Made by a program: the position numbers and the translations under genes. Shown here in pieces: positions 2,558 to 29,718 of a DNA stretch of 36,521 nucleotides. Location: positions 1-36,521 of the forward strand of contig CALDEP010000015.1 of the NCBI GenBank assembly GCA_937942475.1, in the 5' to 3' direction. Source of the DNA: an uncultured Aureispira sp. (lineage in GTDB: Bacteria > Bacteroidota > Bacteroidia > Chitinophagales > Saprospiraceae). Within the stretch, counting starts at the first letter, position 1; each line of letters starts with the position of its first letter. Under the pieces are notes generated by a model. The model was given only the letters and a program-made list of their open reading frames with translations, did no database searches and was not told the DNA's origin.

Positions 2558-2581
2558 TATTTTACAGAACGTCAATACAGC

Positions 2582-2638
2582 TATGTGAAGGTTTGAATAG
2601 AATGCATTAAACTAGTCTTTAAACCTTCACATACGCTA
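2582..2638. terminator. Hairpin between convergent genes
   Basis: TATGTGAAGGTTT (2582-2594) is perfectly complementary to AAACCTTCACATA (2621-2633), a 13-bp stem with a 26-base loop. It lies between the stop of the OmpA-domain gene and the stop of the minus-strand methyltransferase gene, so it probably ends transcription from both sides. The U-tract is weak on the plus side (TAATTTTTATTTT a few bases later). Confidence 0.55.
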
Positions 2639-2642
2639 ATTT

Positions 2643-3488
2643 TTATTTTGTAATTTCCACATTCTCCAACTGTCCTTTCTCCCAGCCAATCATAGAAGTT
2701 TTACGAGTTTTGTTCCATTTGTATTCACTAATTGCGCCAACAGAACGAATCACCCGATGGCAAGGAATCAGATAGCCAATATGATTTTGACCAATGGCAG
2801 AACCAACGGCACGGCTTGCTTTTGGGTTTCCAATAGCAGCTGCTATTTGTTGATAAGATTGTACGTAAGCAAATGGAATTTTGAGCAAGGCTTCCCAAAC
2901 TTTGATCTGAAAAGGCGTTCCTGATAATAAAAGAGGAATGGGCTGCTTAGAATTTGGCCTAAAAATTTGATGCGCTAGAACACTTGTTTTAGCCTTGTCT
3001 TCCACAAAAATTGCCGAACTAAAGCGTTTTTGTATAGCGGTTAATGCTGCCCCTTTATCCTCTTCCAAAAAATCTAAGGCACAGATACCTCGTTCTGTCA
3101 TTGCCAAAAAACAAGTCCCAAAAGGACTAGAATGAGAACCATAAGAAATCGTCAATCCTTTTCCCTTTTGTTTGAATTCACCAGGCGTAAGGGCTTCTAT
3201 ATTCACAAACAAATCATAGGCTCTAGAGGGCGCAGATAAACCAACGGTCTCCGACAAGGCTAGAATATTGGGCGCATGGTCTATTTCTTTTTTGAGATTT
3301 TTTAAGGTTAAATACTGCAAGAATTTTTTAGGTGAAATACCTGCCCAAGCTTTAAATATCCGTTGGAAATGAGGTTTACTTAGCTGTACGTGCGCTGCAA
3401 TATCGTCTACTTTTGGTTGTGCCTCCAAGTTTTGTGCGATGTATTGCAATGCCGCTTCTATCCTTTGATAATTAATGCTTTCTTTCAT
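2643..3488 (-). CDS. AraC-type HTH / methylated-DNA-protein-cysteine S-methyltransferase fusion (Ada-like)
   Basis: Residues 1-108 form an AraC/XylS-type double helix-turn-helix (KVDDIAAHVQLSKPHFQRIF, ending TPGEFKQKGKG). Residues about 115-270 are an O6-alkylguanine-DNA methyltransferase with the active-site motif PCHRV (Cys243), preceded by the RAVGSAIGQN arginine-finger region. The Cys accepts the methyl group from O6-methylguanine in a suicide reaction. E. coli Ada has an N-terminal zinc methylphosphotriester-sensing domain before the HTH; here the protein starts directly with the HTH, so the classic activating switch is absent. Fusions of this shape are known in many bacteria. Function is confident; whether it also regulates transcription is inference. 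A TTG...TAGATTTG promoter-like pair (20-base spacing) lies so close to the ATG that the message would be almost leaderless. Confidence 0.9.
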   Translation of the reverse strand: MKESINYQRIEAALQYIAQNLEAQPKVDDIAAHVQLSKPHFQRIFKAWAGISPKKFLQYLTLKNLKKEIDHAPNILALSETVGLSAPSRAYDLFVNIEALTPGEFKQKGKGLTISYGSHSSPFGTCFLAMTERGICALDFLEEDKGAALTAIQKRFSSAIFVEDKAKTSVLAHQIFRPNSKQPIPLLLSGTPFQIKVWEALLKIPFAYVQSYQQIAAAIGNPKASRAVGSAIGQNHIGYLIPCHRVIRSVGAISEYKWNKTRKTSMIGWEKGQLENVEITK

Positions 3489-3605
3489 AAAACAAATCTA
3501 AGAGATCCTTTTGATAATGACAACCCGAAACGTGCTATTTTATAAGAAACAGCTTTTTAAAAAAGCTATTAAGCCACTTTCTTTAATCAAAACAGACGAT
3601 AGAAT

Positions 3606-3722
3606 GGTGTCAGGGCGATGTCCTTAGGTGGTGTCAGGGCGCTGCCCTTAGGTGGTGTCAGGGCGCTGCCCTTATAGGTGGTGTCAGGGCGCTGCCCTTA
3701 TAGGTGGTGTCAGGGCGCTGCC
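3606..3722. repeat. Array of five palindromic 21-bp repeats (GGTGTCAGGGC type)
   Basis: Five units start at 3606, 3630, 3654, 3680 and 3706, a period of 24, 24, 26 and 26 bases. The unit is GGTGTC followed by a small hairpin AGGGC-GCT-GCCCT and TTA. Unit 1 has GAT as loop and GTCCT as right arm, keeping a G-U pair. Unit 5 has lost one C and runs into TTTTTT. Two related units with a changed but still complementary stem lie at 36475-36521. The flanks (3489-3605 and 3723-3875) show nothing else recognised. Confidence 0.9.
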
Positions 3723-3875
3723 TTTTTTAAGAAGGTTAGACTCAGTTCTAAAGAAAAAACACATTATTAAAAATCGTAAAGTCTGAATAACTTCTCTATT
3801 ATAATTGGTGGGCGATCAATCTTTTTAGTATTTTTATAAGTTATTTAATAATTCTTAACAAGCAAACGGTTCCTT

Positions 3876-6620
3876 ATGCTTAGATTTTTTTACACGACAC
3901 TTTTATGTTGCTTAATGTTTGAATCGCTTACGGCACAATTATTTCAAGATGATTTTGGGTCTGGCTTTCAAAGTATTAGTACAACAAACTGGCCATCTGC
4001 TTGTCGAGGAGGATCGCCCAGTAGCTTCAATACCTCCTCTGCTCCTTGTGGTTCAGCAAGTGAACGGGCTTATTTGTTGAGTGGTTTTGGCGCATACATT
4101 ACCAGTTCTGCGATCAACATTCCAGCAACAGGCTATGCACTCACCTTTGAGTATTCTTTTAGCAATGCCTTTAGTTTTCCAACGATTGAAATTCGTACAG
4201 GGGGAACCTGTGGTACAACACTAGCCAATACAACGACTTTGACCAATACCAGCGGTTCCTGCACAACAGAAAGCATTGATTTGTCTGCATTTGCAGGGCA
4301 AACTATTTTTATTCGTTTTCGTTCCAACACCTCTTCTGCAACCTTTTATTTGGATGAAGCAGTGGTTGATGTAGCAAGTGGTGGTGGCGGAGGCGGAAGT
4401 TGTCTCTTGAGTGATGATTTTGGGACGGCTTTTCAGAGTATAAATGCTGTAAATTGGCCATCTGCTTGTCGAGGAGGATCGCCCAGCGGCTTTAACACCT
4501 CGTCTGCGCCTTGTGGAACAACAACCGAACGTGGCTACTCCTTAAGTGGCTTTGGAGCGTACATTACTTCGATGCCTTTGACGATTCCTAGCACAGGTTA
4601 TAACCTTGATTTTGAGTATTCTTTTAGTAATGCCTTTAGTTTTCCAACGATTGAGATTCGTACAGGCGGAACTTGCGGGACGAGTTTGGCAAGTTCTACT
4701 ACATTGAGCAATACAGGGGGCGTTTGTACGCCACAAAGCATTAATTTGGATGCATTTGCAGGACAAACGATCTTTATTCGCTTTCGCTCGAATACTTCTT
4801 CAGCTACTTTTTTCTTGGACGAAGTGCAAGTTTGTGGTGGCGGTGGAGCAAGTAGTGGCGATTTTAAATTTGCTGATAATTTTAATGACAATGACTTGAT
4901 TCCTAATTTTGCAGGAAATGACGGTGACGAAGCTTGTACAGGTTGTGGAAATTGGACTTTGAATGGAGGAGCGACCTTAGAACTCGTCCCTGCCAGTGGT
5001 TGGAACGGCAATAGCAATGAAACAGAGGCCTTTCCTGACGGGATGGCAAATGTGCGTTATGTCAAATTAGATCGTAACGAGTACATCGAATCGCCTACCT
5101 TGGATTTGTCTGGACAGACAGGCTTAAAAATTAGCTTTTATGCAAAATCGTCTTCTCCAGGATCGGGTGGTGGAGATAATTGGTCGTCTTTTGGAGAGCA
5201 TTTGCGCTTGCAAATTTGGGACGGTTCCGCTTGGATTACCGTAAAGGACATCACGGAAGGTACTTCTGTGGAAGAAAATAAAATTTTGCCAGCTTTGCCG
5301 CTCAATTATTTCTGTTTCACGGCTTACAACGATGCTGCTGCTCCTGGCAATTATTACTACAATAATACCCCCAATGTAAATCCTGCTTATTTTCATGCGG
5401 ATTTCAAATTTCGAGTCGTTTTTGAAGGCGGCTTTTCGGGAGCACCTTTTGCTTGGGTCGATGATTTTACCTTTCGTGCAGATGCAGATGGCTATTCTAC
5501 CATGATTCCATGTGGCCTCTCTTTTTGGAATCAACCCGCAGCGACTTCCTATGGTCAAGACCTCGGAACTAGTGGCAACAACAATGCAGAAAAAGGCGTT
5601 GAGTTGGAATTAGATAACACGATTAATTTTCCACCCAATTGGAACACAGAAGCAAATGATGGCGATGTTGTCGACCAAGTTTTTGGAAGTGGAGAAAGCG
5701 AACGCGTTGTTTTTTGTGTGCTTTCTGAACAAGAAATTAATTTCACCTTTCCTAGAGTCAGCTATTCTTCTCCTTCGATTGGTAACCAAAGTACCGTTCT
5801 ATCTATTGATAATACCTATACTGGTCCTGGATGGAGATATTATGCGGTCGAATATATTAGTTGTGATTTAGCAAGCGCTACTATCAGCGAGCCAACTGAC
5901 CAGTTTGTGTACCATTATGTTTTTGAATATGGGAATGAATTTGTGCCGACGTTCTATCAATTAAACACCTCTGGAATTGAAACAGGTGGGGGCGTAACCA
6001 GTAGTTTTGAGCGTTTTAGTGCGCCCGATCTTACTTCTACGGATAATTGTGGACTGCTTTTGTCTTCTGAATTAATTCGTTTTACAGGGATTTATGAACA
6101 TCAACAAGTGTTATTGGAATGGGAAACGGAAGCAGAATTAGATCATGCAAGTTTTGAAATTGAGCGAAGTTTTGATGGGCTTCAATTTGATGTAATTGCT
6201 TCACAAGCAGCTTTAGGTGAAAATGGTTTGGGAGCTTATTATAACTACATAGATGCAGACTTGGATAAGAGTAAAAAATACGTGTATTATCGACTCAAAC
6301 AAATGGACCAAGATGGCTCCTTTGAGTACACCAACACCATCGTTATTGAGTTGGAACATCAGACACTAGATTTTCAAATTCAGCCCAACCCAAGTGCTAC
6401 AGAAGCTTATTTGATCCTTCCCAAAATGAAGGAATCTTATGATTTAGAATTGCTTATTTATAATAATTTGGGGCAGGTTTTGATACAAAAAAAATACAAG
6501 GATTTACAACATCAAAATCACTTGAAGATTGACAGTTATTCTTTAGCCAAAGGGATTTATACGATACATATAAAAGTCAACGAAACCTACAGTCAGAATA
6601 AACGCTTTATAAAACAATAG
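3876..6620 (+). CDS. T9SS-exported surface protein with duplicated N-terminal domain
   Basis: A signal peptide (1-21, ending TAQ) is followed by two tandem copies of a roughly 145-residue beta-rich domain (about 22-167 and 176-320). Both carry WPSACRGGSPS, FNTSSAPCG, FEYSFSNAFSFPTIEIRTGG and FAGQTIFIRFRSNTSSATF, and they are joined and followed by Gly-rich linkers. A third, related jelly-roll-like segment (about 330-535, FADNFNDND to FAWVDDFTFRAD) is longer. Residues about 730-825 resemble the FN3-like domain usual before T9SS tails (VLLEWETEAELDHASFEIER). The last 80 residues are a Por_Secre_tail-type sorting domain (QPNPS, NNLGQVL, LAKGIYTIHI). The tail directs export by the type IX system and attachment or release at the surface. 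The repeated domains look like carbohydrate- or adhesion-type lectin folds, which is inference. No catalytic motif was seen. Confidence 0.85.
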   Translation: MLRFFYTTLLCCLMFESLTAQLFQDDFGSGFQSISTTNWPSACRGGSPSSFNTSSAPCGSASERAYLLSGFGAYITSSAINIPATGYALTFEYSFSNAFSFPTIEIRTGGTCGTTLANTTTLTNTSGSCTTESIDLSAFAGQTIFIRFRSNTSSATFYLDEAVVDVASGGGGGGSCLLSDDFGTAFQSINAVNWPSACRGGSPSGFNTSSAPCGTTTERGYSLSGFGAYITSMPLTIPSTGYNLDFEYSFSNAFSFPTIEIRTGGTCGTSLASSTTLSNTGGVCTPQSINLDAFAGQTIFIRFRSNTSSATFFLDEVQVCGGGGASSGDFKFADNFNDNDLIPNFAGNDGDEACTGCGNWTLNGGATLELVPASGWNGNSNETEAFPDGMANVRYVKLDRNEYIESPTLDLSGQTGLKISFYAKSSSPGSGGGDNWSSFGEHLRLQIWDGSAWITVKDITEGTSVEENKILPALPLNYFCFTAYNDAAAPGNYYYNNTPNVNPAYFHADFKFRVVFEGGFSGAPFAWVDDFTFRADADGYSTMIPCGLSFWNQPAATSYGQDLGTSGNNNAEKGVELELDNTINFPPNWNTEANDGDVVDQVFGSGESERVVFCVLSEQEINFTFPRVSYSSPSIGNQSTVLSIDNTYTGPGWRYYAVEYISCDLASATISEPTDQFVYHYVFEYGNEFVPTFYQLNTSGIETGGGVTSSFERFSAPDLTSTDNCGLLLSSELIRFTGIYEHQQVLLEWETEAELDHASFEIERSFDGLQFDVIASQAALGENGLGAYYNYIDADLDKSKKYVYYRLKQMDQDGSFEYTNTIVIELEHQTLDFQIQPNPSATEAYLILPKMKESYDLELLIYNNLGQVLIQKKYKDLQHQNHLKIDSYSLAKGIYTIHIKVNETYSQNKRFIKQ

Positions 6621-9617: not shown

Positions 9618-11423
9618 TTATTCACAAATAACATACTCTTTAAAGTCGCCTCTCATGCAATGGTTGGAACTGGTAGAAGCACCATAGCCACCACTATTAA
9701 GCAAGGCTAGGTAGTCGCCTTCTTCGATCAGCGGCAACAACTTATCTTCAGAAAAAAGGTCAATTGGCTCGTTGATGTTTCCCGAAAGCGTTGCTTTAAA
9801 TGTTTGTTCGTCTTTGGGTTCTAGAAGCGGTACGGCCTCTAGATTCATTTTATAATAAGCATATTCATAATTCATATTCATGCCGGTATCAATGCCAACA
9901 AAGTACTTTCCTTTTTTTTCTTCAATGGTATTCACTTGTGTAATTAAAAGGCCTGCATCTTTTACCAAATAATCTCCAGGCTCGAAGGCTAATTTTAAGC
10001 CTTTTCTATTGGCATAAGTACAAATAATGGCTGCCCATTCTTTTAGATCCAAAATTTGATCTCCTTGGTTTTGTGGCACGCCTAATCCACCTCCTAAATT
10101 TAAAGTTTTAACGGTAGGAAACAAAGCTATAAAATTATCAATCACCTCAAAAATAGAAGGCAATCGCTCTAGTTGATGCGTCAAAAAACCAGAGCCAGAA
10201 TGACAATGTACCCTTGTGATGATTATATTAGAATGGTTGATCAGGGTTTTTAAGGCAGCCCACTGTTCTTGATAGATTCCAAATTTTACAATCTCGTTAC
10301 CAGAGTATTCCAAATCTTGCCTGTAAGCCATGCCGATATTGGGATTGATGCGAATGCCAATTTCTCGTGTTTGATTGGAATTAAGTTGGATAAAACGTCG
10401 AATTGAACTGATGGCATCAAAGTTAATTTGAATGTTTGGGTGTTGGACTAGAATTTTTAAGTCTTGTTGTGATAAGGAAGTTCCTGTGTAAGTGATTTCT
10501 TTTTCTTGGAATCCATATTGAATCGCTCGATCCAATTCGTTGGGCGAACAAACATCAATGCCGATGTTTGTTTTTGCTTTTAGATGGCTTAAAATTGCGG
10601 CATGGCGATTGGCTTTCATCGCATAATAGACCTTATAATCAGGTGTATATTGCTCTAAAGCGGTTGAGAGTTGCGTATATTTATCGAGGATGCGTTGAAT
10701 GTTATAAACATAAAAAGGCGTTGGCTTATTTTGAACAAAATCGTGAAGATTGCTTGCTGCAAACGTTAGGTGATTTTGTGTATAGTTCAAGTCCTTGCGT
10801 TCCCACCAGTAGTTTTTCTTTTTGATAGAGGCTAATTTATTTAAGTTATTATCAAAAAAACGAGCATAAATAACAGCAGAGCATTCACAAGGAGGTGCGC
10901 CACAAAAGCCACATTGATAATTCTGTTCAACACTTTCTGTTGTCCAAAAATGCGGGACTTCTTTGAGTGCTTGACAGCCATTTCGTTCCAAAATAGACCC
11001 AATGTGCGTGTGTTCCGATTTCCAAGCGTCGCAAACAACCACGTCTACTTTACCCGACAAAAAATCCAAGCCTTGTTTGACCAAAAAACTAGCCACTCCT
11101 TTGCCTTCAAATTCCTTGCTGACTGCGGTTAAAGAGCGATATCCAATGTTATCATAAGCCAAAAAATAGTCTAGAAACCATTGTTCTGCTTGTTTCATTT
11201 TTTGTGCAATTTGAGCACGAGGTGAAATTTCCATTAAGGAAAACCCAATCACTTGTTGATCCAACAAAACGACCTGGCAATATTTAGAAGGATGGTCTAA
11301 ATAAGAGGCTAATAAGTCAGGGTCTAAAAAGCCCTTGCCCAATTGTTCTTCACAGATTTTTAGAATAGAAGAAAGGTGTTTTTTTTTGATAAAACTTAAA
11401 GAATAAGATAGTATTTGGGGCAT
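9618..11423 (-). CDS. Fusion of GNAT acetyltransferase, Cys4 motif and DAP/ornithine decarboxylase-like PLP domain
   Basis: Residues 1-165 are a GNAT N-acetyltransferase (acetyl-CoA loop FEGKGVASFLVKQG, about 105-118). A four-Cys cluster CGFCGAPPCEC (Cys171, 174, 179, 181) follows, likely binding zinc. Residues about 230-601 are a fold-III PLP enzyme of the LysA/ornithine decarboxylase family: YYAMKAN with the PLP Lys270, HCHSGSG (406-412), GGGLG (444-448), EPGDYLV (481-487). In normal family members a later GPxCESxD-type motif carries the catalytic Cys; here it reads GNINEPID (548-555), with Asn551 in the Cys position while Glu and Asp remain. Substrate and even decarboxylase activity are therefore uncertain; an amino-acid epimerase or altered decarboxylase is possible. 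A fused acetyltransferase suggests that the amine product or substrate is acetylated. It is probably upstream of the QueC-like gene on the same strand, with element A between. Confidence 0.8.
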   Translation of the reverse strand: MPQILSYSLSFIKKKHLSSILKICEEQLGKGFLDPDLLASYLDHPSKYCQVVLLDQQVIGFSLMEISPRAQIAQKMKQAEQWFLDYFLAYDNIGYRSLTAVSKEFEGKGVASFLVKQGLDFLSGKVDVVVCDAWKSEHTHIGSILERNGCQALKEVPHFWTTESVEQNYQCGFCGAPPCECSAVIYARFFDNNLNKLASIKKKNYWWERKDLNYTQNHLTFAASNLHDFVQNKPTPFYVYNIQRILDKYTQLSTALEQYTPDYKVYYAMKANRHAAILSHLKAKTNIGIDVCSPNELDRAIQYGFQEKEITYTGTSLSQQDLKILVQHPNIQINFDAISSIRRFIQLNSNQTREIGIRINPNIGMAYRQDLEYSGNEIVKFGIYQEQWAALKTLINHSNIIITRVHCHSGSGFLTHQLERLPSIFEVIDNFIALFPTVKTLNLGGGLGVPQNQGDQILDLKEWAAIICTYANRKGLKLAFEPGDYLVKDAGLLITQVNTIEEKKGKYFVGIDTGMNMNYEYAYYKMNLEAVPLLEPKDEQTFKATLSGNINEPIDLFSEDKLLPLIEEGDYLALLNSGGYGASTSSNHCMRGDFKEYVICE

Positions 11424-17130: not shown

Positions 17131-18024
17131 TTATAAAAGGAATAAACGTTCATAAAAAGCAGCTTTATCTGCATTATCAGGCAAACCAGAAACTTGCCCA
17201 TCGCCTAATTCTACAATGATCCATTGACCGTCTTTTTGTTGTGCAATATCCACACTAAAAAAGTTACTCTTTATAAGAGGAATAACGGAATCTAAGAAGC
17301 TAAGGTTGGGTGAAATAGCTTCATAATCGCCCTCGTCCCAATAATTAAAGGCTTGAATGATTTTACCATCTTTGACTAAAATTCTAAATTCTTTGGTCAA
17401 AGGCATTCCACTAAGAGAATGTTCTGTCAAGTGTTCTAAGGCTACAAAAGCACGATAAACAAGACCAATATTCAAATCTACATCTTGTAATTCTATGAAA
17501 CGGCGAGTAATTTTTTCGACAGTTTCCAAATCACTAGCATCTGGAATAAAGCAGGCTTCTTTCCAATAATGCTTTTGTGACTTGACATAGTCTTTGACAA
17601 TAATTGCCTGCTTGCCAAAGGTTTTTAAATCTTCTCTAAAATCTTCAATATCAAAGGGTTTTTCTAAAGGCTTAAAAATACTCTTTGGCGTGAAATCTTG
17701 AATGGTTTCATAAGAATTGGGGAAATAATGACAAAAAGCATATTCCTCAGGGCTGTTGATTAATTGAATGTTCTTAGCCAATAAAGCCTCGTATAACAAT
17801 TCATATTGATCTTTGGACAGCATCCAACCTCTATAAATGGCAGTCTCTTTTTCAGTCACAGAGCGAACAAGTTTAAGCGCTGTTTCTAAGTGCCCTTTTT
17901 TCAAGGCTTCAAAACTAATTAAGGAACAAGGAATAGAAGCCGCCTTGGCAGCCTCGTATTCTTCCTGATACATATAGTCTACTTCCTTGGGACTAAATCC
18001 GCTGTCACAAAATAGAATTCTCAT
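17131..18024 (-). CDS. ATP-grasp protein, R2K clade (DUF4343-like)
   Basis: About 297 residues from the chosen start. MRILFCDSGFSPKEVDYMY at the N-terminus, AIYRGWMLSKDQYELLYEAL, LINSPEEYAFCHYFPNSYE, the IIVKDYVKSQKH nucleotide-binding strand and the ending VDIAQQKDGQWIIVELGDGQVSGLP, with the metal-binding Glu, fit the R2K ATP-grasp family, which joins a carboxylate to an amine via an acyl-phosphate. Substrates of most members are unknown; some modify peptides or proteins. An upstream ATG at 18060 is in frame, but family members begin close to MRILFC, so the start at 18024 is preferred. The gene follows a SEC-C protein and precedes a small secreted protein in the same operon. Family fairly sure; role unknown. 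Confidence 0.75.
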   Translation of the reverse strand: MRILFCDSGFSPKEVDYMYQEEYEAAKAASIPCSLISFEALKKGHLETALKLVRSVTEKETAIYRGWMLSKDQYELLYEALLAKNIQLINSPEEYAFCHYFPNSYETIQDFTPKSIFKPLEKPFDIEDFREDLKTFGKQAIIVKDYVKSQKHYWKEACFIPDASDLETVEKITRRFIELQDVDLNIGLVYRAFVALEHLTEHSLSGMPLTKEFRILVKDGKIIQAFNYWDEGDYEAISPNLSFLDSVIPLIKSNFFSVDIAQQKDGQWIIVELGDGQVSGLPDNADKAAFYERLFLL

Positions 18025-18069
18025 AGGCTTTGTAATGCTTATGATTCTTTGAGTTATCAAAGAGCCATT

Positions 18070-20417: not shown

Positions 20418-21674
20418 ATGGAAACGACAAGAAATAAAACATTAAGCTCTCAAGAATTAATGGAGCTAGAGAATAAGCATGGAGCGCACAACTATCATCC
20501 TCTTGGCGTAGTACTAGCCAAAGGAGAAGGCGTTTATGTGTGGGATGTAGAAGGAAAGCAATATTTTGATTTTTTATCGGCTTATTCTGCTGTTAATCAA
20601 GGGCATTGTCATCCAAGGTTGGTTGCTGCAATTACAGAACAAGCTTCTGTGTTGAACTTAACTTCTAGAGCATTTTATAATGACAAACTAGGAGTATTTG
20701 AAAAATTTGCAACAGAATACTTTGGTTATGAGAAATTGTTGCCAATGAACACGGGAGCAGAAGGCGTTGAAACGGCGATTAAGATTTGTAGAAAATGGGG
20801 TTATGAGAAAAAAGGAATTCCAGCAAACAAAGCAAAAATTATTGTTTGTGGCGAAAACTTTCACGGACGTACGGTAACCATCATCTCTTTTTCTAGTGAT
20901 CCTGATGCTAAAGGAAGTTTTGGACCTTATACACCAGGTTTTGAATCGGTTCCTTATAATGATTTGGATGCATTGAAAGCTGTTTTAGAAGCTGATTCAG
21001 CAAATATTGCAGGTTTTTTAGTAGAGCCAATCCAAGGAGAAGCAGGTGTAAATGTTCCTGATGATGGTTTCTTGTTTGTAGCGCATAAGTTGTGTAAAGA
21101 GCACAATGTCTTGTTTATTGGAGATGAAATCCAAACAGGAATTGCTCGTACAGGTCGTTTGTTGGCTTGTGATTATGATAATGTGCGTCCTGATATTCTA
21201 ATTTTAGGAAAAGCAGTTTCTGGTGGAATGTATCCTGTATCTGCTGTTTTGGCAGACAATTACATCATGGATGTGATCCACCCAGGACAACATGGGTCTA
21301 CTTATGGTGGTAATCCAATGGCTTGTGTCGTTGCTATGGAAGCTTTGAAAATTGTGGTAGAAGAGGATTTGGCTAAAAATGCCTATCATTTGGGCGTTTT
21401 ATTCCGTAATCGCATGAAAAAATTAGCAGAAAAATCAAATCTAGTTTCTAGCGTAAGAGGAAAAGGTTTGTTGAATGCTGTTTTGGTTAACGATACGCCT
21501 GATAGCTCTACGGCAATGGATATTTGTATTGCTTTATCTAAAAATGGTCTGTTGGCAAAACCAACACATGGAAACATTATTCGTTTTGCACCACCATTGG
21601 TAATGACAGAAGAGCAATTGGATGCTTGTTGTACGATTATTGAGGATACCATTCTAAAATTCAAAAAAGGATAA
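20418..21674 (+). CDS. rocD: Ornithine--oxo-acid transaminase
   Basis: 418 residues. HGAHNYHPLGVVLAKGEG at the N-terminus is characteristic of ornithine aminotransferase, as are FLSAYSAVNQGHCHPRL, NTGAEGVETAIKICRKWGY (the PLP phosphate loop, 111-129), GDEIQTGIARTG (Asp236) and the Schiff-base lysine in LGKAVSGGMYPVSAV (Lys265). It converts ornithine and 2-oxoglutarate to glutamate semialdehyde and glutamate, linking arginine and proline metabolism in the cytoplasm. The gene is complete, monocistronic, and closed by a good terminator. Confidence 0.95.
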   Translation: METTRNKTLSSQELMELENKHGAHNYHPLGVVLAKGEGVYVWDVEGKQYFDFLSAYSAVNQGHCHPRLVAAITEQASVLNLTSRAFYNDKLGVFEKFATEYFGYEKLLPMNTGAEGVETAIKICRKWGYEKKGIPANKAKIIVCGENFHGRTVTIISFSSDPDAKGSFGPYTPGFESVPYNDLDALKAVLEADSANIAGFLVEPIQGEAGVNVPDDGFLFVAHKLCKEHNVLFIGDEIQTGIARTGRLLACDYDNVRPDILILGKAVSGGMYPVSAVLADNYIMDVIHPGQHGSTYGGNPMACVVAMEALKIVVEEDLAKNAYHLGVLFRNRMKKLAEKSNLVSSVRGKGLLNAVLVNDTPDSSTAMDICIALSKNGLLAKPTHGNIIRFAPPLVMTEEQLDACCTIIEDTILKFKKG

Positions 21675-22055: not shown

Positions 22056-24560
22056 ATGAAAAAACAACTAATCTTAGCCGCTATATTGGTGGCCAGTTGC
22101 TACAGCAACGTTATCAAAGGACAAAATTGTGTAGAATCTATCGCACAAGAATACATACAAAATTCGGACATGAAAATCATGATTCGAAATGCTGGCGACA
22201 TGTTTTGGGATGGCATACAAGCTCAATATGCCGTACCTTATACATACAGTCAAAACCCTCAAGTACATGCCGCTTTTGCTGTGGGAACATGGATGGGAGG
22301 TTATGATACAGGAGGGAATTTATTATTAGCAGCACAGACCTATCGTTCTAATGGAAACGATTATTGGGCAGGACCATTAGATCCTGCTACAGGAGAAGCT
22401 TCTAGATGCGATGATTTTGATAAGATATGGAAAGTAGAACGTTGGGCAGTAGAACAGCATATTGCAGATTATAATGATAATGGAATTATTGATGGACCAA
22501 CCAATTTGAGCATATTGGAGTGGCCAGGAAGAAACAATCCTAACTTTGCCGCTCAAATGGGTTTTTCATTACCTGTCAACCAAGATTTAGCCCCATTTTA
22601 CGATAGAAATAGCGATGGGATTTATAATCACTTCGATGGGGATTATCCTGTGTTTGAGCACGGGAATGTAAATGCAATTGCAGAAGAGGTTTTGTGGTCG
22701 GTCTTTAATGACCATGGCAATTTACACACCCAAACTGGGGGACTGCCTTTGAAGGTAGAAGTGCAACAAACGGCTTATTTGTTTTCTTGTAGTAACGATC
22801 CTTTACTAAATAAAACCTTGTTTGTCAAACATAAAGTAATTAGTAGATCTGCTTTGCCTGTTTATGATTATTACTATGGGGTTTGGGCTGATTTTGATAT
22901 GGGTTGTAGTAATGATGATTATGTAGGAACGATTCCTAGTAAGAATACAATGTATGCCTATAATGCAGACAACCATGATGATAATCCTTGTGGGACAATG
23001 GGTCAAGCAGGTTATGGCGTGAATCCACCAGTACAGGCAATGACTATTTTGAATCATTCTTTGGCAAATTCGATTTACCATACCAATAGTTCTAGTAGTC
23101 CAACAGGAGATCCTGCTTCAGCTATTCAGTATTATCGTTTATTAAGTGGAGTATTTCCAAACAACACCCCTTTAACAACTGGAGGAACGGGCTATAACCC
23201 AAATGATCCAAATGCTGTATCTACTAATTATATGTTTCCTGATAATCCTAATGACCCTTCAGGTTGGTCTATGTATACTGAAGGCTTATCTGGTTTAGAT
23301 CAGCGTGTTCTAGGTACGATACACAAGGATAGCTTATTGCCAGGAGAGGTATTTACGGTTGATTTGGCTTATTCTTATCATAGAGACCTTGATAGCTCTC
23401 ATATTCAGAATGTGAATTTGATGTATCAGGAAGTAGACATCATACAGCAATATTATGATAATAACTTTAATTTGATCGCTTGTACGCCATCAACTTATTG
23501 TACCACAAATTGTGTGTATCCTGGAGATGCCAATAACAATGGAATTGACAATGATTTTGATATCTTGGAAATGGGCTTAAAATATGGTGCTTCTGCGATT
23601 GCTCGTACTCAAATAGGCGATCACTGGATGCCACATACACCACCAAGTCCCATTACCAATGCTTATGTAGATGCCAATGGTGATAATGTCATAGATGCCT
23701 TGGATTTGATGGTAAATAAAGATAACTGGCAAGAAACGCACAGTTTGTATACAGGAGCCGTAGAAGGCTTTAATACCCTAGGGACAGATTTAACATTTGA
23801 ACGTTTTTATGTCAACTCAGGACTTCCTGTTTTTCCAATAACAGACACTATTGTAGAGTTAGATGGTTATGTAGTATTGGATGTAAATTTTGCCGATACC
23901 TTGCAACATATTGCAGATGTACATGGCGTAACGTTTAGAGTGAATTATGATGAGAGTGTCTTAATTTTAGATCAAAGAAGTACTCCTATTTTGGGGCTAG
24001 GAAATACAGCATTGGCGAATGGCTGGTTAGACGATGATGGAGCAGCTGTTCACAGTCGAATGACGATAGAAGATGGGCGAGTACATTATGTCGGAACGCG
24101 TCTGAATCAAGTCAACTATACTGGTGGTGGAAATATGGGGCGGTTGATTTTTAAGGTTGATCCTAACACACCAATAAATGCCAGTACCCTGTCTACACAA
24201 GTTTGTTTTGAAGACTTTAAAGCGATTCGTGCCGATGGAAGTACGATTTCTATAGGAGCGGAATGTGCGACTATTTTATATCAAGATCCAAACTATACGA
24301 GTATCAGCAGCATTCAAACGATGGCTCCTGCCATTAGTATTTATCCAAATCCTACGAATTATCAACTAAATATAGATTTGGGAGCAGAACGTGCGAAGTC
24401 CATCCAGTTATTTAATGTACTGGGCATGGAAGTTCAAAGCCTAGAAAATGCTAGTGGAATTGTAGAAATACAGAAAGGTAAATTAGCACAAGGAGTTTAT
24501 ACCGTAGTGGTACATTTTGAGAATGGCACCCATTCTAGCCACAAAGTTTTGTTTAATTAG
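22056..24560 (+). CDS. T9SS surface protein with calcium-loop, dockerin-like and cohesin-like modules, paralog 1
   Basis: 834 residues. A signal peptide (about 1-23, ending KGQ) precedes a roughly 460-residue conserved region rich in Tyr, Trp, Asn and Asp (NAGDMFWDGIQAQY, GTWMGGYD, YYYGVWADFDMGC). Four calcium-loop-like motifs are visible: DYNDNGIID (138-146), DRNSDGIYNHFD (183-194), DANNNGIDNDFD (491-502) and DANGDNVIDALD (539-550). The last two form a dockerin-like pair introduced by CVYPGDAN. Residues about 595-745 look like a cohesin fold (GVTFRVNYDESVLILD, GRLIFKVDPNTP, FKAIRADGSTISI). Residues 757-834 are a T9SS sorting tail (YPNPTNYQLNI, NVLGMEV, LAQGVYTVVV). It is probably exported to the cell surface. 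The N-terminal domain has no recognised function. Cohesin-like and dockerin-like calls rest on pattern only. Confidence 0.85.
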   Translation: MKKQLILAAILVASCYSNVIKGQNCVESIAQEYIQNSDMKIMIRNAGDMFWDGIQAQYAVPYTYSQNPQVHAAFAVGTWMGGYDTGGNLLLAAQTYRSNGNDYWAGPLDPATGEASRCDDFDKIWKVERWAVEQHIADYNDNGIIDGPTNLSILEWPGRNNPNFAAQMGFSLPVNQDLAPFYDRNSDGIYNHFDGDYPVFEHGNVNAIAEEVLWSVFNDHGNLHTQTGGLPLKVEVQQTAYLFSCSNDPLLNKTLFVKHKVISRSALPVYDYYYGVWADFDMGCSNDDYVGTIPSKNTMYAYNADNHDDNPCGTMGQAGYGVNPPVQAMTILNHSLANSIYHTNSSSSPTGDPASAIQYYRLLSGVFPNNTPLTTGGTGYNPNDPNAVSTNYMFPDNPNDPSGWSMYTEGLSGLDQRVLGTIHKDSLLPGEVFTVDLAYSYHRDLDSSHIQNVNLMYQEVDIIQQYYDNNFNLIACTPSTYCTTNCVYPGDANNNGIDNDFDILEMGLKYGASAIARTQIGDHWMPHTPPSPITNAYVDANGDNVIDALDLMVNKDNWQETHSLYTGAVEGFNTLGTDLTFERFYVNSGLPVFPITDTIVELDGYVVLDVNFADTLQHIADVHGVTFRVNYDESVLILDQRSTPILGLGNTALANGWLDDDGAAVHSRMTIEDGRVHYVGTRLNQVNYTGGGNMGRLIFKVDPNTPINASTLSTQVCFEDFKAIRADGSTISIGAECATILYQDPNYTSISSIQTMAPAISIYPNPTNYQLNIDLGAERAKSIQLFNVLGMEVQSLENASGIVEIQKGKLAQGVYTVVVHFENGTHSSHKVLFN

Positions 24561-24589
24561 AATTTTAAAATTAATTGTTAAGCGTTTGA

Positions 24590-24635
24590 CAGTTTGTGGG
24601 TACATGTAACATGTATTTGCAAACTGTTTTATTTT
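24590..24635 (+). terminator. Intercistronic hairpin between paralogs 1 and 2
   Basis: CAGTTTG (24590-24596) pairs with CAAACTG (24620-24626), enclosing TACATGT/ACATGTA (24601-24607, 24609-24615), then TTTTATTTT. It ends about 20 bases before the next start codon, so some read-through may supply the downstream gene. The same structure recurs before paralog 3. Confidence 0.75.
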
Positions 24636-24654
24636 CAGAAAAAGAAAGCAACCA

Positions 24655-27150
24655 ATGAGATTAAAAAGCTATATACACCTACTATTAACCAGTTTATTTT
24701 GTACTACTATCCAAGCACAAAATTGTGTCGAATCTACAGCAAAGGAGTACATACAAAATTCAGACATGAAAATCATGTTCCGAAATGCAGGGGATATGTT
24801 TTGGGATGGCATCCAAGCACAGTATGCTGTACCCTATATCTACAATCAGGCAAGTCAAGCACATGCGACTTTTGCAGGAGCAACATGGATGGGCGGTTAT
24901 GATGCAGGCGGAAATTTATTATTAGCGGCACAAACCTATCGTTCTTATGGAGATGACTATTGGGCAGGACCAATAGATCCTGCGCTTGGTGTTCCTTTTG
25001 ATTGTGAAAATTTTGATCATATTTGGAAAGCACAACGTTGGGCAGTAGAGCAGCATATTGCAGATTATAATGATAATGGAATAATTGATGGACCAACCGA
25101 TTTGAGCTTATTGGAATGGCCAGGAAGAAACAATCCTCATTTTGCCGCTCAGATGAATTTTCAATTGCCTGCCAATCAAGATTTGGCGCCTTTTTATGAT
25201 AGAAATAGTGATGATATTTATGATCCCTTGGATGGGGATTATCCAGTGTTTGAACATGGCAATCAGAATGCGATTGCAGAAGAAGTTTTATGGTCGGTTT
25301 TTAATGATAATGGTGGTATACATACCGAAACTGGGGGACTACCTCTGAAAGTAGAAGTACAGCAAACGGCTTATTTGTTTTCTTGTAGTAATGATCCTTT
25401 ATTAAGTAAAACCTTGTTTGTCAAGCACAAAGTCATCAGTAGGTCTCAAAGCCCTATTTATGATTATTATTATGGAGTTTGGGCTGATTTTGATATGGGC
25501 TGTAATAATGATGATTATGTGGGAACGATTCCTAGTAAGAATACGATTTATGCCTATAATATAGATAACAATGATGATAATCCTTGTGGAAATTATTTGT
25601 CAGGATATGGAGTGAATCCACCAGTACAAGCAATGACTATTTTGAACCATTCTATGGCACATTCTACCTACTATATCAATGGTTTTAGTCCAACTGGAAA
25701 TGTGCAGAATGCTACGGAATATTACAATTTGTTAAGTGGGAAATTTTCTAGTGGCGCAGCTATGACAAGAGGCGGATCGGGCTATAATCCAAACGATCCC
25801 AATGCGATCCCATCCGATTATATGTTTCCAGACAATCCAAACAATCCTTCAGGTTGGTCTATGTACTATGCTAATTTATCGGGTTTGGATCAGCGCACGA
25901 TGGGTTCTATACACAAAGATAGCTTAATGCCAGGAGAAATTTTGACGATAGATTTAGCCTATTCTTATCACCGACACCCAGATAGTTCAAATACTCAAAA
26001 CGTGAATTTGATGTATCAGGAAATAGACTTAGTACAGCAGTATTATGATAATAACTTTAACTCGGTTGCTTGCATACAACCCACCTATTGTACCACAAAT
26101 TGTGTGTATCCTGGAGATGCAAATAACAATGGCATAGACAATGATTTTGATATCTTAGAAATGGGCTTAAAATATGGTGCTTCTGCGCTCACTCGTAGCC
26201 AAATAGGCGATCATTGGATGCCACATACGCCACCAAGTCCAATTACAAATGCCTATGTAGATGCCAATGGTGATAATACCATAGATACCTTAGATTTGGT
26301 TGTCAATAGAGACAATTGGCTAGAGACGCATAGTTTGTATACTGGCGTCGCCGAAGGGTTTAATACAGTAGGAACAGATTTAACTTTTGAGCGTTTTTAT
26401 AGTACTCTAACGATCCCTTTTTATTCACCAACAGATACGATTGCAAATTTGGGTCGTTATGTAGCATTGGATATAAACTTTGGAGATTCTTTACAAAATA
26501 TAACAGATGTACATGGCGTAACGTTTAGGGTTAATTACGACGAGACTGTCTTAGTTTTGAATCAAGGATTTACGGGTGTTTTGGGAGTAGGACGTACAAA
26601 ATTAACGAATGGATGGTTAGATGACGATGGCGCTCCTGTTCATAGTCGAACGATGACAGAAGAGGGAAAGATCCATTATGTGGGAACGCGTCTAAATCAA
26701 GTTAACTATACTGGTGGTGGAACGCTAGGACGTTTGATTTTCTGGATAGACTCTAACACGCTCATAAATGCCGATACGATGTCCACACAAGTTTGTTTTG
26801 AAGATTTTAAAGCGGTTCGTGCCGATGGAAGTACCATTTCTATTGGAGCTACTTGTGCGACCATTTTATATAGAGATGCAAATTATACAAGCATTAGAAC
26901 GATTCAAGCAACAGCACCTGCTATTCGTATTTATCCAAATCCTACGAATTATCAACTAAATATAGATTTGGGAGCAGAACGGGCAAAATCCATCCAATTG
27001 TTTAATATATTGGGAATGGAAGTGCAAGGTCTAGAAAATGCTAGTGGAATTGTGGAAATAGAGAAAGGTAAATTAGCACAAGGGATGTATACGGTGGTCG
27101 TTCAGTTTGAAAATGGCACTCGATCTAGCCACAAAGTTTTGTTTAATTAA
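24655..27150 (+). CDS. T9SS surface protein with calcium-loop, dockerin-like and cohesin-like modules, paralog 2
   Basis: 831 residues and the same module order as its left neighbour, to which it is very similar along nearly the whole mature protein. The signal peptide (MRLKSYIHLLLTSLFCTTIQ, cleavage after AQ) instead matches paralog 3. The calcium-loop motifs are kept: DYNDNGIID, DRNSDDIYDPLD (Asp in place of the usual loop Gly), DANNNGIDNDFD and DANGDNTIDTLD. The cohesin-like part (GVTFRVNYDETVLVLN, FKAVRADGSTISIG) and the T9SS tail are intact. Differences concentrate in the region corresponding to residues 310-400 and around 580-650, which may be exposed loops. Expression likely depends on an own promoter or on read-through of the hairpin just upstream. 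Confidence 0.85.
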   Translation: MRLKSYIHLLLTSLFCTTIQAQNCVESTAKEYIQNSDMKIMFRNAGDMFWDGIQAQYAVPYIYNQASQAHATFAGATWMGGYDAGGNLLLAAQTYRSYGDDYWAGPIDPALGVPFDCENFDHIWKAQRWAVEQHIADYNDNGIIDGPTDLSLLEWPGRNNPHFAAQMNFQLPANQDLAPFYDRNSDDIYDPLDGDYPVFEHGNQNAIAEEVLWSVFNDNGGIHTETGGLPLKVEVQQTAYLFSCSNDPLLSKTLFVKHKVISRSQSPIYDYYYGVWADFDMGCNNDDYVGTIPSKNTIYAYNIDNNDDNPCGNYLSGYGVNPPVQAMTILNHSMAHSTYYINGFSPTGNVQNATEYYNLLSGKFSSGAAMTRGGSGYNPNDPNAIPSDYMFPDNPNNPSGWSMYYANLSGLDQRTMGSIHKDSLMPGEILTIDLAYSYHRHPDSSNTQNVNLMYQEIDLVQQYYDNNFNSVACIQPTYCTTNCVYPGDANNNGIDNDFDILEMGLKYGASALTRSQIGDHWMPHTPPSPITNAYVDANGDNTIDTLDLVVNRDNWLETHSLYTGVAEGFNTVGTDLTFERFYSTLTIPFYSPTDTIANLGRYVALDINFGDSLQNITDVHGVTFRVNYDETVLVLNQGFTGVLGVGRTKLTNGWLDDDGAPVHSRTMTEEGKIHYVGTRLNQVNYTGGGTLGRLIFWIDSNTLINADTMSTQVCFEDFKAVRADGSTISIGATCATILYRDANYTSIRTIQATAPAIRIYPNPTNYQLNIDLGAERAKSIQLFNILGMEVQGLENASGIVEIEKGKLAQGMYTVVVQFENGTRSSHKVLFN

Positions 27151-27179
27151 GACCCCAAAAGGGATTCTTAAACATTTTC

Positions 27180-27225
27180 CAGTTTGTAAATGCCTATAAA
27201 TGCATTTGCAAACTGTTTTATTTTT
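27180..27225 (+). terminator. Intercistronic hairpin between paralogs 2 and 3
   Basis: 27180-27193 (CAGTTTGTAAATGC) pairs with 27202-27215 (GCATTTGCAAACTG) with one G-U pair and an 8-base loop, followed by TTTTATTTTT. Outer arms, T-run and the following AGAAAAAGAAAnCAACCAATGAG match the corresponding stretch before paralog 2, while the inner stem differs in sequence but still pairs. Confidence 0.8.
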
Positions 27226-27243
27226 AGAAAAAGAAAACAACCA

Positions 27244-29718
27244 ATGAGATTACAACAAAGCTATATATCTGTACTGTTAATCAGCTTATTTTATACTACT
27301 GTCCAAGCACAAAATAACTGTGTAGAATCGACAGCACAAGAGTACATTCAGAATTCAGAGATGAAAATTTTATTTCGAAATGGGGGCGACCGATTTTGGG
27401 ATGGGAGTACTGCCAAATACGAAGTTCCCCATGTTTATGGACAGGCGGCAACAAATACCATTTTTGCAGGCGCAACATGGATGGGCGGCTATGATAACGG
27501 AGGAAGTTTATACGTGGCAGCACAAACGTACCGCTCTGGTGGAAATGATTATTGGGCTGGACCGATAGATGTTTCGTCTGGAACGCCTATGGTTAATTCT
27601 TGTGCCGATTTTGATAAAATATGGAAGGTTAGGCGTTGGGCGATTGATCAGCATATTGCAGATTATAATGATAATGGTATCATTGATGGACCAAGTGATT
27701 TGAGCCTTTTGAAATGGCCAGGAAGGGGAAATCCTCAATTCGCTGCACAAATGGGTTTTTCTTTACCTGCTAATCAAGATTTAGCGCCATTTTACGACCG
27801 AAATGGAGATGGTAATTATCAGCCTTTGGCAGGTGATTATCCTGTTTTTGAACATGGAAATGCAAACGCCCTTGCAGAAGAAATTCTGTGGTCGGTTTTT
27901 AATGACATGGGAAATCTACATACCCAAACCAATGGGCAAGCAATGAAAATAGAGGTGCAACAAACGGCTTATTTGTTTTCTTGTGCAAATGATCCACTAT
28001 TGAACAAAACCTTATTTGTGAAGCATAAAGTCATTAATAAAAGTGGTCGAGATTACCACAATTACTATTATGGCGTGTGGACAGATTTTGACTTAGGTTG
28101 TAGCAGCGATGATTATATCGGAACAGATTCTAGCAGGAATACAATGTATGCCTATAATGCAGATAATAATGATGACCTTAATTGCCCCTATGGAGCAGGT
28201 TATGGAGTAGATCCTCCAGTGCAAGCAATTACTATTTTGAATCACCCTTTGGCGCATTCGATGTACTATGTAAATTCTCCTGGTCCACAGGGTGACCCTG
28301 TCAGTCTACTTAATTATTATAGACCACTGGATGGTCAATGGATGAATGGCACTCCACTTACTTCTGGAGGAAATGGGTACAATACAGGAGGTGGAATTGC
28401 AGCAAATTATGTTTTTCCAGACAATCCAAATAATCCTTCAGGCTGGTCGATGCACACCGCAAATTTGACAGGTTTAGATGTAAGAATGCTTGGTTCTGTT
28501 TATAAAGACACCCTTAAAGATGGAGACGTCTTTACAATAGATATTGCACATTCTTATCATAGAGATCCAGATAGTAATTATCTTCAGAATGTAAATTTGA
28601 TGGAACAAGAAGTGGACCTTGTACAACAATATTACGATAATAATTTTTCAACTATAGGCTGTGTACTACCAACCTATTGTGCGACCAATTGTGTGTATCC
28701 AGGAGATGCTAATAATAATGGGATTGACAACGATTTTGATGTATTGGAAATGGGCTTAAACTATGGTGCTACTGCTGTCACTCGTTCTATTGTGGGCGAT
28801 CAATGGTTTCCGCACGAACCGCCAGTTCCAGCAACAAATGCCTATGTAGATGCCAATGGAGATAATGTTGTAGACAGTTTAGATTTTATGGTCAATACAG
28901 AAAACTGGCAAGAGACCCATGCTTTGTATAACAACAGCTCAGAAGGAGTAACGGTAGCAGGAACGGACTTGTTTTTTGAACGCTTTTATGTGCCGCCTCC
29001 ATTTAATCTTTTGGATACAATTGTAGACGCTTATCAGTCAGCGGTTTTAGATATTAATCTAGGAGATAGTTTACAAGACATAACGGATTTATATGGAATC
29101 ACTTTTCGGGTTCGTTATGATGATAATATTTTTTGGATGATGAATACTTCTAATAGTTTTTTTAGTGCTGAATTTAGCCCTTGGCTGGGAGATGATGGAG
29201 CGGGGATTTATGCTAGACAAACGAATGAACCTGGAAAAATTCATTATGTAACAACTCGTTTGGATCAAAGCAATTATACTGGAGGTGGCAAGATGGGACA
29301 GATTGTTTTGAGAGTAAAACCAACGGCTCCTGTATCTGTAATTAGTACGCCTACAGAGATTTGCTTTGAGGACTTTAAAGCGATTCGTGCCGATGGATCA
29401 ACGATTTCTATTGGAGCAGAATGTATCACTGTTTTGTACAAAAATCTGAATTTTAATTCAGTGGATAAGATCAGTCCTATAGCACCTGAAATTAAGCTTT
29501 ATCCAAATCCAGTAAATTATCAACTCAATATAGATTTGGGAGAAGAGCGTGCAGCGTCTATTCAATTGTTTAATATGCTAGGCGAGGAGGTAAGAAGTCT
29601 TACGAATGCTAGTGGAATTGTTGAAATGCAGAAAAATAATTTAGCACAAGGAATGTATACGGTGGTCGTTCATTTTGAGAATGGCACTCGATCTAGTCAT
29701 AAGGTTTTGTTTAACTAA
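27244..29718 (+). CDS. T9SS surface protein with calcium-loop, dockerin-like and cohesin-like modules, paralog 3
   Basis: 824 residues from the chosen start. An in-frame ATG at 27190 lies inside the upstream hairpin and would put 18 polar residues before the signal peptide, so the ATG at 27244, at the same place as in paralog 2, is preferred. The mature protein keeps the whole layout but is the most diverged of the three: loop 2 reads DRNGDGNYQPLA, losing the last acidic ligand, and the dockerin-like pair reads DANNNGIDNDFD and DANGDNVVDSLD. The cohesin-like part (GITFRVRYDDNIFWM) and T9SS tail (YPNPVNYQLNIDLG, LAQGMYTVVVHFENG) remain. A strong terminator closes the cluster. Confidence 0.85.
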   Translation: MRLQQSYISVLLISLFYTTVQAQNNCVESTAQEYIQNSEMKILFRNGGDRFWDGSTAKYEVPHVYGQAATNTIFAGATWMGGYDNGGSLYVAAQTYRSGGNDYWAGPIDVSSGTPMVNSCADFDKIWKVRRWAIDQHIADYNDNGIIDGPSDLSLLKWPGRGNPQFAAQMGFSLPANQDLAPFYDRNGDGNYQPLAGDYPVFEHGNANALAEEILWSVFNDMGNLHTQTNGQAMKIEVQQTAYLFSCANDPLLNKTLFVKHKVINKSGRDYHNYYYGVWTDFDLGCSSDDYIGTDSSRNTMYAYNADNNDDLNCPYGAGYGVDPPVQAITILNHPLAHSMYYVNSPGPQGDPVSLLNYYRPLDGQWMNGTPLTSGGNGYNTGGGIAANYVFPDNPNNPSGWSMHTANLTGLDVRMLGSVYKDTLKDGDVFTIDIAHSYHRDPDSNYLQNVNLMEQEVDLVQQYYDNNFSTIGCVLPTYCATNCVYPGDANNNGIDNDFDVLEMGLNYGATAVTRSIVGDQWFPHEPPVPATNAYVDANGDNVVDSLDFMVNTENWQETHALYNNSSEGVTVAGTDLFFERFYVPPPFNLLDTIVDAYQSAVLDINLGDSLQDITDLYGITFRVRYDDNIFWMMNTSNSFFSAEFSPWLGDDGAGIYARQTNEPGKIHYVTTRLDQSNYTGGGKMGQIVLRVKPTAPVSVISTPTEICFEDFKAIRADGSTISIGAECITVLYKNLNFNSVDKISPIAPEIKLYPNPVNYQLNIDLGEERAASIQLFNMLGEEVRSLTNASGIVEMQKNNLAQGMYTVVVHFENGTRSSHKVLFN

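Follow-up and report, generated by a model that had tools for sequence, protein, structure and literature searches.

A dockerin-cohesin cassette ahead of the type IX secretion tail in three tandem paralogs of an uncultured Aureispira sp., and a possible composite stem

Genes and domain architecture

The DNA studied here is a stretch of 36,521 nucleotides from an uncultured marine Aureispira sp. (the whole stretch is referred to below as the window), which is one contig of a 494-contig assembly, the genome being 88.5% complete. In a genome scan the closest named relatives of the window were Aureispira (Saprospiraceae), including Aureispira sp. CCB-QB1. Three adjoining open reading frames (ORFs) on the + strand encode paralogous proteins of 834, 831 and 842 amino acids (aa), numbered 1 to 3 (Table 1), which carry an N-terminal head domain (NTD), a dockerin, a cohesin and the C-terminal tail of the type IX secretion system (T9SS); in 3/3 the dockerin is directly followed by the cohesin and then by the tail. 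An earlier sequence-only reading had proposed a T9SS tail, dockerin loops and a cohesin fold in one chain, and this architecture is now supported by computation, i.e., by tail matches over the cut-off, by the profiles of relatives and by the predicted fold.

The tail was matched over the cut-off in all three paralogs both by PF18962 (38.4, 37.7 and 40.1 bits vs 27) and by TIGR04183 (37.6, 35.8 and 40.6 bits vs 23), and signal peptides could be read from the sequence. From these features we infer that each paralog would leave the cell through the T9SS, its tail then keeping it on the surface. The trio resembles T9SS type A cargo in the signal peptide and the Por_Secre tail, and differs from it by the dockerin-cohesin cassette preceding the tail, which is the new part. 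The tail was the only domain of the trio over a curated cut-off in Pfam and NCBIfam, and therefore the names dockerin and cohesin needed other support, for which profiles were built. Dockerin_1 (PF00404) stayed under its cut-off in the three window paralogs (15.6, 11.0 and 11.6 bits vs 22.9), as did Cohesin (PF00963) in two of them (13.5 and 13.5 bits vs 24.1), no match being listed for the first paralog; Pfam alone establishes neither domain in the window proteins.

For the cohesin, two structural models were used: an AlphaFold2 model of mature paralog 1 (model 1; 41 rows, mean predicted local distance difference test (pLDDT) 80.2) and a model of the dockerin-cohesin piece of paralog 2 (model 2; 11 rows, mean pLDDT 69.8, predicted TM score 0.72), in which the ten-residue blocks of the cohesin ranged from 47 to 89 in pLDDT. 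When model 1 was compared with the PDB by Foldseek, rows one to four were all cohesins (2w1n, cohesin plus FN3, E 2.1e-10); lower down, further cohesins were numerous, e.g., 2vo8 (TM 0.77 by target) and 2xdh of Archaeoglobus. Similarly, the first 47 of the best 50 VIA matches of model 2 were cohesins, the best being 4dh2_C (Z 14.0, root-mean-square deviation (rmsd) 3.0 Å, 144 residues). The predicted fold is that of a cohesin, as the sequence-only reading had expected. Homology was supported by sequence profiles as well: among 37 non-redundant cassettes, reduced from 61, Cohesin matched 20 at E<=0.1 (best 5.5e-7), and a cohesin profile of 25 rows gave 8 matches at E<=1 among PDB sequences, all of them cohesins (best 8.5e-4).

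The dockerin carries two EF-hand-like loops, which had also been anticipated from the sequence. In both loops, positions 1 and 12 were Asp in 37/37 cassettes, the loops of the window included; Asn or Asp stood at positions 3, 5 and 9 in 37, 37 and 34 of the 37 for loop 1, and in 36, 34 and 32 for loop 2. Each loop of model 2 is followed by a helix, predicted with low to moderate confidence. Dockerin_1 matched 23/37 cassettes at E<=0.1 (best 1.2e-5), the cassette profile matched the PDB dockerin 2y3n_B (E 2.5e-5), and four relatives found by the same profile exceeded the Dockerin_1 cut-off of 22.9 (L399, 29.5; L400, 25.3; L401, 29.8; L394, 24.1 bits). The fold-search matches listed for the dockerin-cohesin model cover the cohesin alone; as cohesins and matches to the head filled the lists, the absence of a dockerin chain among them is no evidence against a dockerin. 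The 37 cassettes share an additional stretch between the two loops, in which an Arg is invariant and a Trp nearly so and which is not known as a feature of textbook dockerins; the inter-loop segment is longer than in the cellulosomal pairs.

The NTD (~450 aa) is predicted to fold as a beta-supersandwich like the N-domains of carbohydrate enzymes. In the AlphaFold2 model of the paralog 1 domain, pLDDT was >=85 in 38/45 ten-residue blocks, and its top VIA match was 9ju0_CCC (Z 18.7, rmsd 3.5 Å, 257 residues), followed by glucodextranase 1ug9 (Z 17.4), cellobiose phosphorylases (~17) and GH116 (~16.8). The predicted fold of the NTD is thus shared by N-domains of GH94, GH15-type and GH116 enzymes (9ju0, 1ug9, 3qde and 5bvu; Z 16.7-18.7). 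However, these enzymes continue into an (alpha/alpha)6 catalytic barrel where the trio has dockerin, cohesin and tail, and the NTD has no match among PDB sequences and contains internal calcium-loop-like motifs. When 32 NTDs were scanned, the lowest E values were 0.0068 in Pfam and 0.31 in NCBIfam, each reached by a single member, and the NTD profile had 0 matches at E<=10 among PDB sequences. The suggestion that the domain belongs to an unnamed family was upheld by these scans. In a scan of named genomes, 67 of 110 pattern stretches were confirmed as NTD relatives (66 loci), in records of Bacteroidetes, Zixibacteria, Eisenbacteria, GN15 and Calditrichaeota; the predicted supersandwich head is a domain family still without a name, and its relatives extend over several FCB phyla. 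The genome of the window has three more copies, whose frames measure 1241, 1397 and, where a contig end cuts the frame, 802 aa. In the trio the NTD probably acts as a binding or structural head with a putative ligand. Of the four calcium-loop-like motifs claimed for each paralog, the dockerin pair was present in 3/3, and the second motif of the NTD is degenerate in paralog 3, where loop positions 9 and 12 are Gln and Ala.

The start of paralog 3 is probably at 27244 (MRLQQSYISVLL..., a signal peptide resembling that of paralog 2), giving 824 aa. The genes are separated by 94 bases and then by 93 (or 39, with the ORF opening at 27190), and because these gaps are short the trio could form one transcript. 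Pairwise identity among the paralogs was 67-78% in the NTD, 70-89% in the dockerin, 50-72% in the cohesin and 79-91% in the tail.

Table 1. Positions in the window of the three paralogs and of their domains and motifs
Feature	Paralog	Position	Strand	Remarks
Gene	1	22056-24560	+	834 aa; signal peptide, NTD, dockerin, cohesin, tail; predicted T9SS cargo
Gene	2	24655-27150	+	831 aa; architecture as paralog 1
Gene	3	27244-29718	+	824 aa from likely start; ORF opens at 27190
NTD (predicted beta-supersandwich)	1	22125-23480	+	AlphaFold2, VIA
NTD (predicted beta-supersandwich)	2	24721-26070	+	AlphaFold2, VIA for paralog 1
NTD (predicted beta-supersandwich)	3	27316-28659	+	AlphaFold2, VIA for paralog 1
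Calcium-loop-like motif 1 of NTD	1	22467-22514	+	DYNDNGIIDGPTNLSI; motif scan; putative calcium site
Calcium-loop-like motif 2 of NTD	1	starts 22602	+	DRNSDGIYNHFDGDYP; motif scan; putative calcium site
Dockerin region	1	23493-23780	+	profiles, loops, model
Dockerin region	2	26083-26370	+	profiles, loops, model
Dockerin region	3	28672-28959	+	profiles, loops
Dockerin loops	1	start at 23526, 23670	+	
Cohesin region	1	23781-24281	+	fold matches, profiles
Cohesin region	2	26371-26871	+	fold matches, profiles
Cohesin region	3	28960-29439	+	profiles
T9SS type A sorting tail	1	24327-24557	+	PF18962, TIGR04183
T9SS type A sorting tail	2	26917-27147	+	PF18962, TIGR04183
T9SS type A sorting tail	3	29485-29715	+	PF18962, TIGR04183

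Distribution of the cassette and comparison with known systems

Dockerin and cohesin form a fixed cassette, which is likewise supported by computation. Among 60 relatives, the whole-cassette profile matched 53, the dockerin profile 51 and the cohesin profile 53. In nine genomes of the genus, 28/29 dockerin matches had a cohesin directly behind them, the exception (G005:C302:6-254) being at a contig end, and 28/30 cohesin matches were paired with a dockerin among the matches listed (G005:C157 lies near a contig end). The genome of the window held five dockerins and five cohesins by the cassette profiles, as five pairs in the same places. Pfam gave no cohesin or dockerin match there at E<=0.001; at E<=1 its models hit cassette places and added two weak places under the cut-off (PF00404 in C266, 15.1 bits; PF00963 in C131, 11.9 bits).

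Since the cassette profile matched 277/298 genomes of the family Saprospiraceae, the cassette can be regarded as a building part in frequent use among the T9SS proteins of the family. Order-wide it matched 175/298 genomes and phylum-wide 55/395, many of the latter matches spanning one module only. The heads in front of it vary, e.g., Kazal-like in one locus (L007) and repeat-rich in another (L008), as read from the sequence; in the former, a protein of the same genome as the window (1477-3996, -), a Kazal-type inhibitor-like match reached 25.1 bits vs a cut-off of 21. A T9SS tail stood behind the cassette in most relative loci, L130 (cut at a contig end), L133 and L135 having no tail match. 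The cassette is general to the family on differing heads and is not peculiar to the trio.

Cohesins and dockerins over the Pfam cut-offs were present in 277/298 (PF00963) and 282/298 (PF00404) genomes of the family, often in many copies, and long frames with many cohesins were found (at least seven in 2434 aa, G092:C1; at least six in 2904 aa, G067:C170). Judged by these sequences, both folds are in wide use among Saprospiraceae, the genome of the window being a lean case with the cassette alone. In other Saprospiraceae, numerous Pfam cohesins were also seen in very long frames at L410, L411, L412 and L414; at L410 and L414 these frames are adjoined by a 263 aa protein, which has a single cohesin and an end resembling a tail, and by what we take to be a LuxR-type regulator, and at L414 presumably also by a PorP/SprF-like gene.

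Outside the family the modules separate or are reordered, as COH-DOC-COH chains (L391-L394 and L396-L398, in the wider Bacteroidota), as three cohesins per protein or as single cohesins. For example, a 1253 aa protein with three cohesins (100.4 bits vs the cut-off of 24.1) adjoins a dockerin protein at L390. The COH-DOC-COH protein of L394 also has a CHAP domain. At L401 three genes lie in a row, encoding a beta-propeller protein with a dockerin (29.8 bits) and a T9SS tail, a lipoprotein-like protein of 185 aa with a weak cohesin match (1e-3) and no Pfam match, and a head-domain protein. A 247 aa protein consisting of a cohesin and a T9SS tail alone was found away from contig ends at L408 (G048; 1002-1742, -), and this free cohesin is an exception to the pairing rule, outside the genus.

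The trio is like the clostridial and ruminal cellulosome pairs (4dh2, 2y3n, 5lxv) in its predicted cohesin fold and its dockerin loops and helices, and the cassette profiles match solved dockerins and cohesins. It differs from them in that a single chain carries both modules next to each other and ahead of a T9SS tail, with no enzyme domain seen, and by the inter-loop segment described above. A multi-cohesin scaffoldin together with dockerin-bearing enzymes, by which a cellulosome is recognised, was not found by the cassette profiles in the genome of the window, which is 88.5% complete. Dockerins and cohesins without a link to cellulose are likewise known from Archaeoglobus fulgidus (2xdh), ANME archaea and Ca. 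Stygibacter. According to PMC9012536, a dockerin and several cohesins can occur together in one protein of ANME archaea, and in PMC8542988 a scaffoldin-like protein of Ca. Stygibacter (Cloacimonadota) is said to attach to the cell surface by its C-terminal domain. The architecture found here is a variant of this non-cellulosomal type, from which it differs by a fixed set of one dockerin and one cohesin, by its presence in 277/298 genomes of one family and by variable heads. No description of the cassette was found in the accessible portions of the literature on dockerins or cohesins with Bacteroidetes, type IX secretion or Saprospiraceae, those of PMC8542988, PMC5831590, PMC6851124, PMC8547425 and PMC9012536 included.

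Possible contact between dockerin and cohesin and its interpretation

Contact between the two modules was approached by pseudo-likelihood covariation in 243 cassettes and 230 columns (effective number 226 at 80%), the rows being filtered by coverage and 95% identity and columns with >=30% gaps being dropped. A first run with 213 rows had put gap-rich columns on top and was replaced by that with 243 rows, in which a few gap-rich top pairs remain. Strong pairs were found within the dockerin, some within the cohesin and one set between the domains: among the six dockerin-cohesin couplings with the highest z, four (7.66, 7.02, 6.11 and 5.86) join the dockerin helix positions 17, 21 and 72, which are position 13 of both repeats and position 17 of the first, with cohesin positions 165, 178 and 180. 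The between-domain maxima of z were 3.1-4.6 in three full shuffles and 4.0-5.7 in nine within-clade shuffles. Small residues tend to occupy position 180 where position 21 has Ala in place of Gly (Ala-Ala seen 6 times vs 0.5 expected). The three cohesin positions are probably on neighbouring strands, on what we take, by profile alignment to 4uyp_A and from cellulosome structures, to be the dockerin-binding face. These couplings suggest, short of proof, a packing of the dockerin helices against a single face of the cohesin; they hint at contact but do not tell whether it is made within one chain or between chains.

Based on these results, the trio is read as having a composite, calcium-dependent stem of two domains, dockerin then cohesin, between the surface head and the tail. 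Calcium would fold both dockerin loops, a dependence that we infer from the loops themselves, and the dockerin helices would lie against the cohesin at its beta5/beta6 face, which is the face that receives dockerins in cellulosomes. Pairing could perhaps take place within one chain, resulting in a calcium-stiffened stem, and this is considered somewhat more likely than pairing between chains because the near-constant order and adjacency, together with a linker of ~18 residues in model 2, suit a pair closing on itself. The reading is preferred tentatively, with doubt somewhat the heavier side.

Several points weigh against it. Between-domain pairs made up 41 of the top 100 couplings vs 50% of all pairs, which is no enrichment, and two of the top six (40-149 and 7-220) fall outside the cluster. 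The weakest clustered coupling (5.86) barely exceeds the largest shuffle maximum (5.70), and the shuffles leave some kinship, the clades being coarse and one of them containing 118/243 rows. The clustering test (P 0.00035) was devised after the pairs had been seen, and 243 rows are at the edge of what covariation allows. Moreover, the dockerin profile also matches ordinary EF-hand proteins (calexcitin, E ~0.015), and the dockerin blocks had a pLDDT of 45-81 in the paralog 2 piece and <60 throughout in the paralog 1 model. As to the head, a predicted supersandwich fold alone is no proof of sugar binding or of function, and copper amine oxidase 1avk (Z 11.0) is among the same VIA matches.

Alternatively, the dockerin of one molecule could bind the cohesin of the next, on the same or the other paralogs or on any cassette protein, so as to build on the filament a chain, layer or matrix that depends on calcium. 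In cellulosomes the modules as a rule pair between chains, as PMC9012536 also has it. The paralog dockerins are similar enough (70-89%) to make cross-binding plausible, and because of this similarity little paralog specificity would be expected; the modules are also separable in the wider Bacteroidota (L390; L391-L394 and L396-L398; L401). On the other hand, a polymer needs no fixed order and the cohesin is directly behind the dockerin in nearly all family members, the genome of the window has no free cohesin or dockerin by the cassette profiles, and the 185 aa protein of L401 lacks a Pfam match. Cells of Aureispira sp. CCB-QB1, whose genome has two tandem orthologs of the trio (L047), aggregate in 7 mM CaCl2 according to PMC8868019, which would agree with such a matrix; for aggregates with kaolin and algae the authors discuss charge neutralisation there. 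Pairing between molecules is judged rather unlikely. The sequence-only reading had put forward such polymerisation; its domain calls and its unnamed head family stand, and structure prediction did not give the lack of a cohesin fold or of EF-hand-like loops that would have refuted it. A composite unit accounts for the fixed adjacency no less well than a polymer does.

It is also possible that the modules do not bind each other, the loops taking up calcium for stability alone and the cohesin serving as a beta-sandwich spacer before the tail. The cohesin is indeed the least conserved domain between the paralogs, signal peptide and linker aside, the top couplings were not enriched between domains, and the cohesin runs in the very long frames of other Saprospiraceae (G092:C1 and G067:C170) look stalk-like. 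Such a stalk would, however, leave the conserved loops, the conserved pairing and the coupling cluster on one cohesin face to be accounted for, and it is regarded as unlikely.

More broadly, the coat of Saprospiraceae could be held together by a self-complementary calcium glue, in which diverse T9SS heads are cross-linked by their cassettes and the trio aids aggregation and ixotrophy in Aureispira; this is decidedly improbable. The least credible proposal, that cassette proteins offer cellulosome-like docking sites to enzymes on other proteins, can appeal to the homology of both modules, to their frequency over the Pfam cut-offs in the family and to the CHAP domain in the COH-DOC-COH protein of L394 (outside the family), but the dockerins and cohesins of the genome of the window are confined by the profiles to five cassettes, with two weak places added by Pfam, and the five cassette proteins have no Pfam enzyme domain, an absence that is uncertain in a genome 88.5% complete.

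We hypothesise a link between the trio and calcium-dependent aggregation. Should the two modules bind each other with calcium, they would offer a testable molecular basis for the calcium-dependent aggregation of Aureispira and possibly new binding pairs for protein engineering. The recurrence of the cassette across most of the family may point to an unrecognised way to build or stiffen an outer coat. In ixotrophy, prey is captured with a heptameric hook of a T9SS-secreted protein, as described without a genus name in the available review text of PMC11205867; nothing found ties that hook to the trio proteins.

Head-domain loci and neighbouring genes

Long proteins (~1350 aa in relatives) that begin with the head domain also occur at L004 (1501-2811), L005 (1501-2790) and L006 (1176-2465), whose neighbourhood looks like a conserved locus. 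In L004 the frame preceding the head-domain protein is presumably the last part of an outer-membrane-barrel-like protein, and in L005 it is, we assume, PorV-like.

Phage records gave no match, a scan of viral contigs gave 24 pattern matches with 0 relatives by tblastn, and one protein of the window, when searched against PDB sequences, returned nothing useful (best E 0.026). The trio is preceded by a class III aminotransferase gene (20418-21674, +), with no obvious connection to it, and is followed on the opposite strand by a gene for a thioredoxin-like lipoprotein, by the look of its sequence. An ornithine/arginine-type decarboxylase (9618-11423, -) lies near the trio, likewise with no obvious connection. 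The window further contains an ATP-grasp protein of the R2K clade (17131-18060, -; 113.7 bits) and another protein with a T9SS tail (3876-6620, +; tail 31.5 bits), which has a CBM_6-like match under the cut-off.

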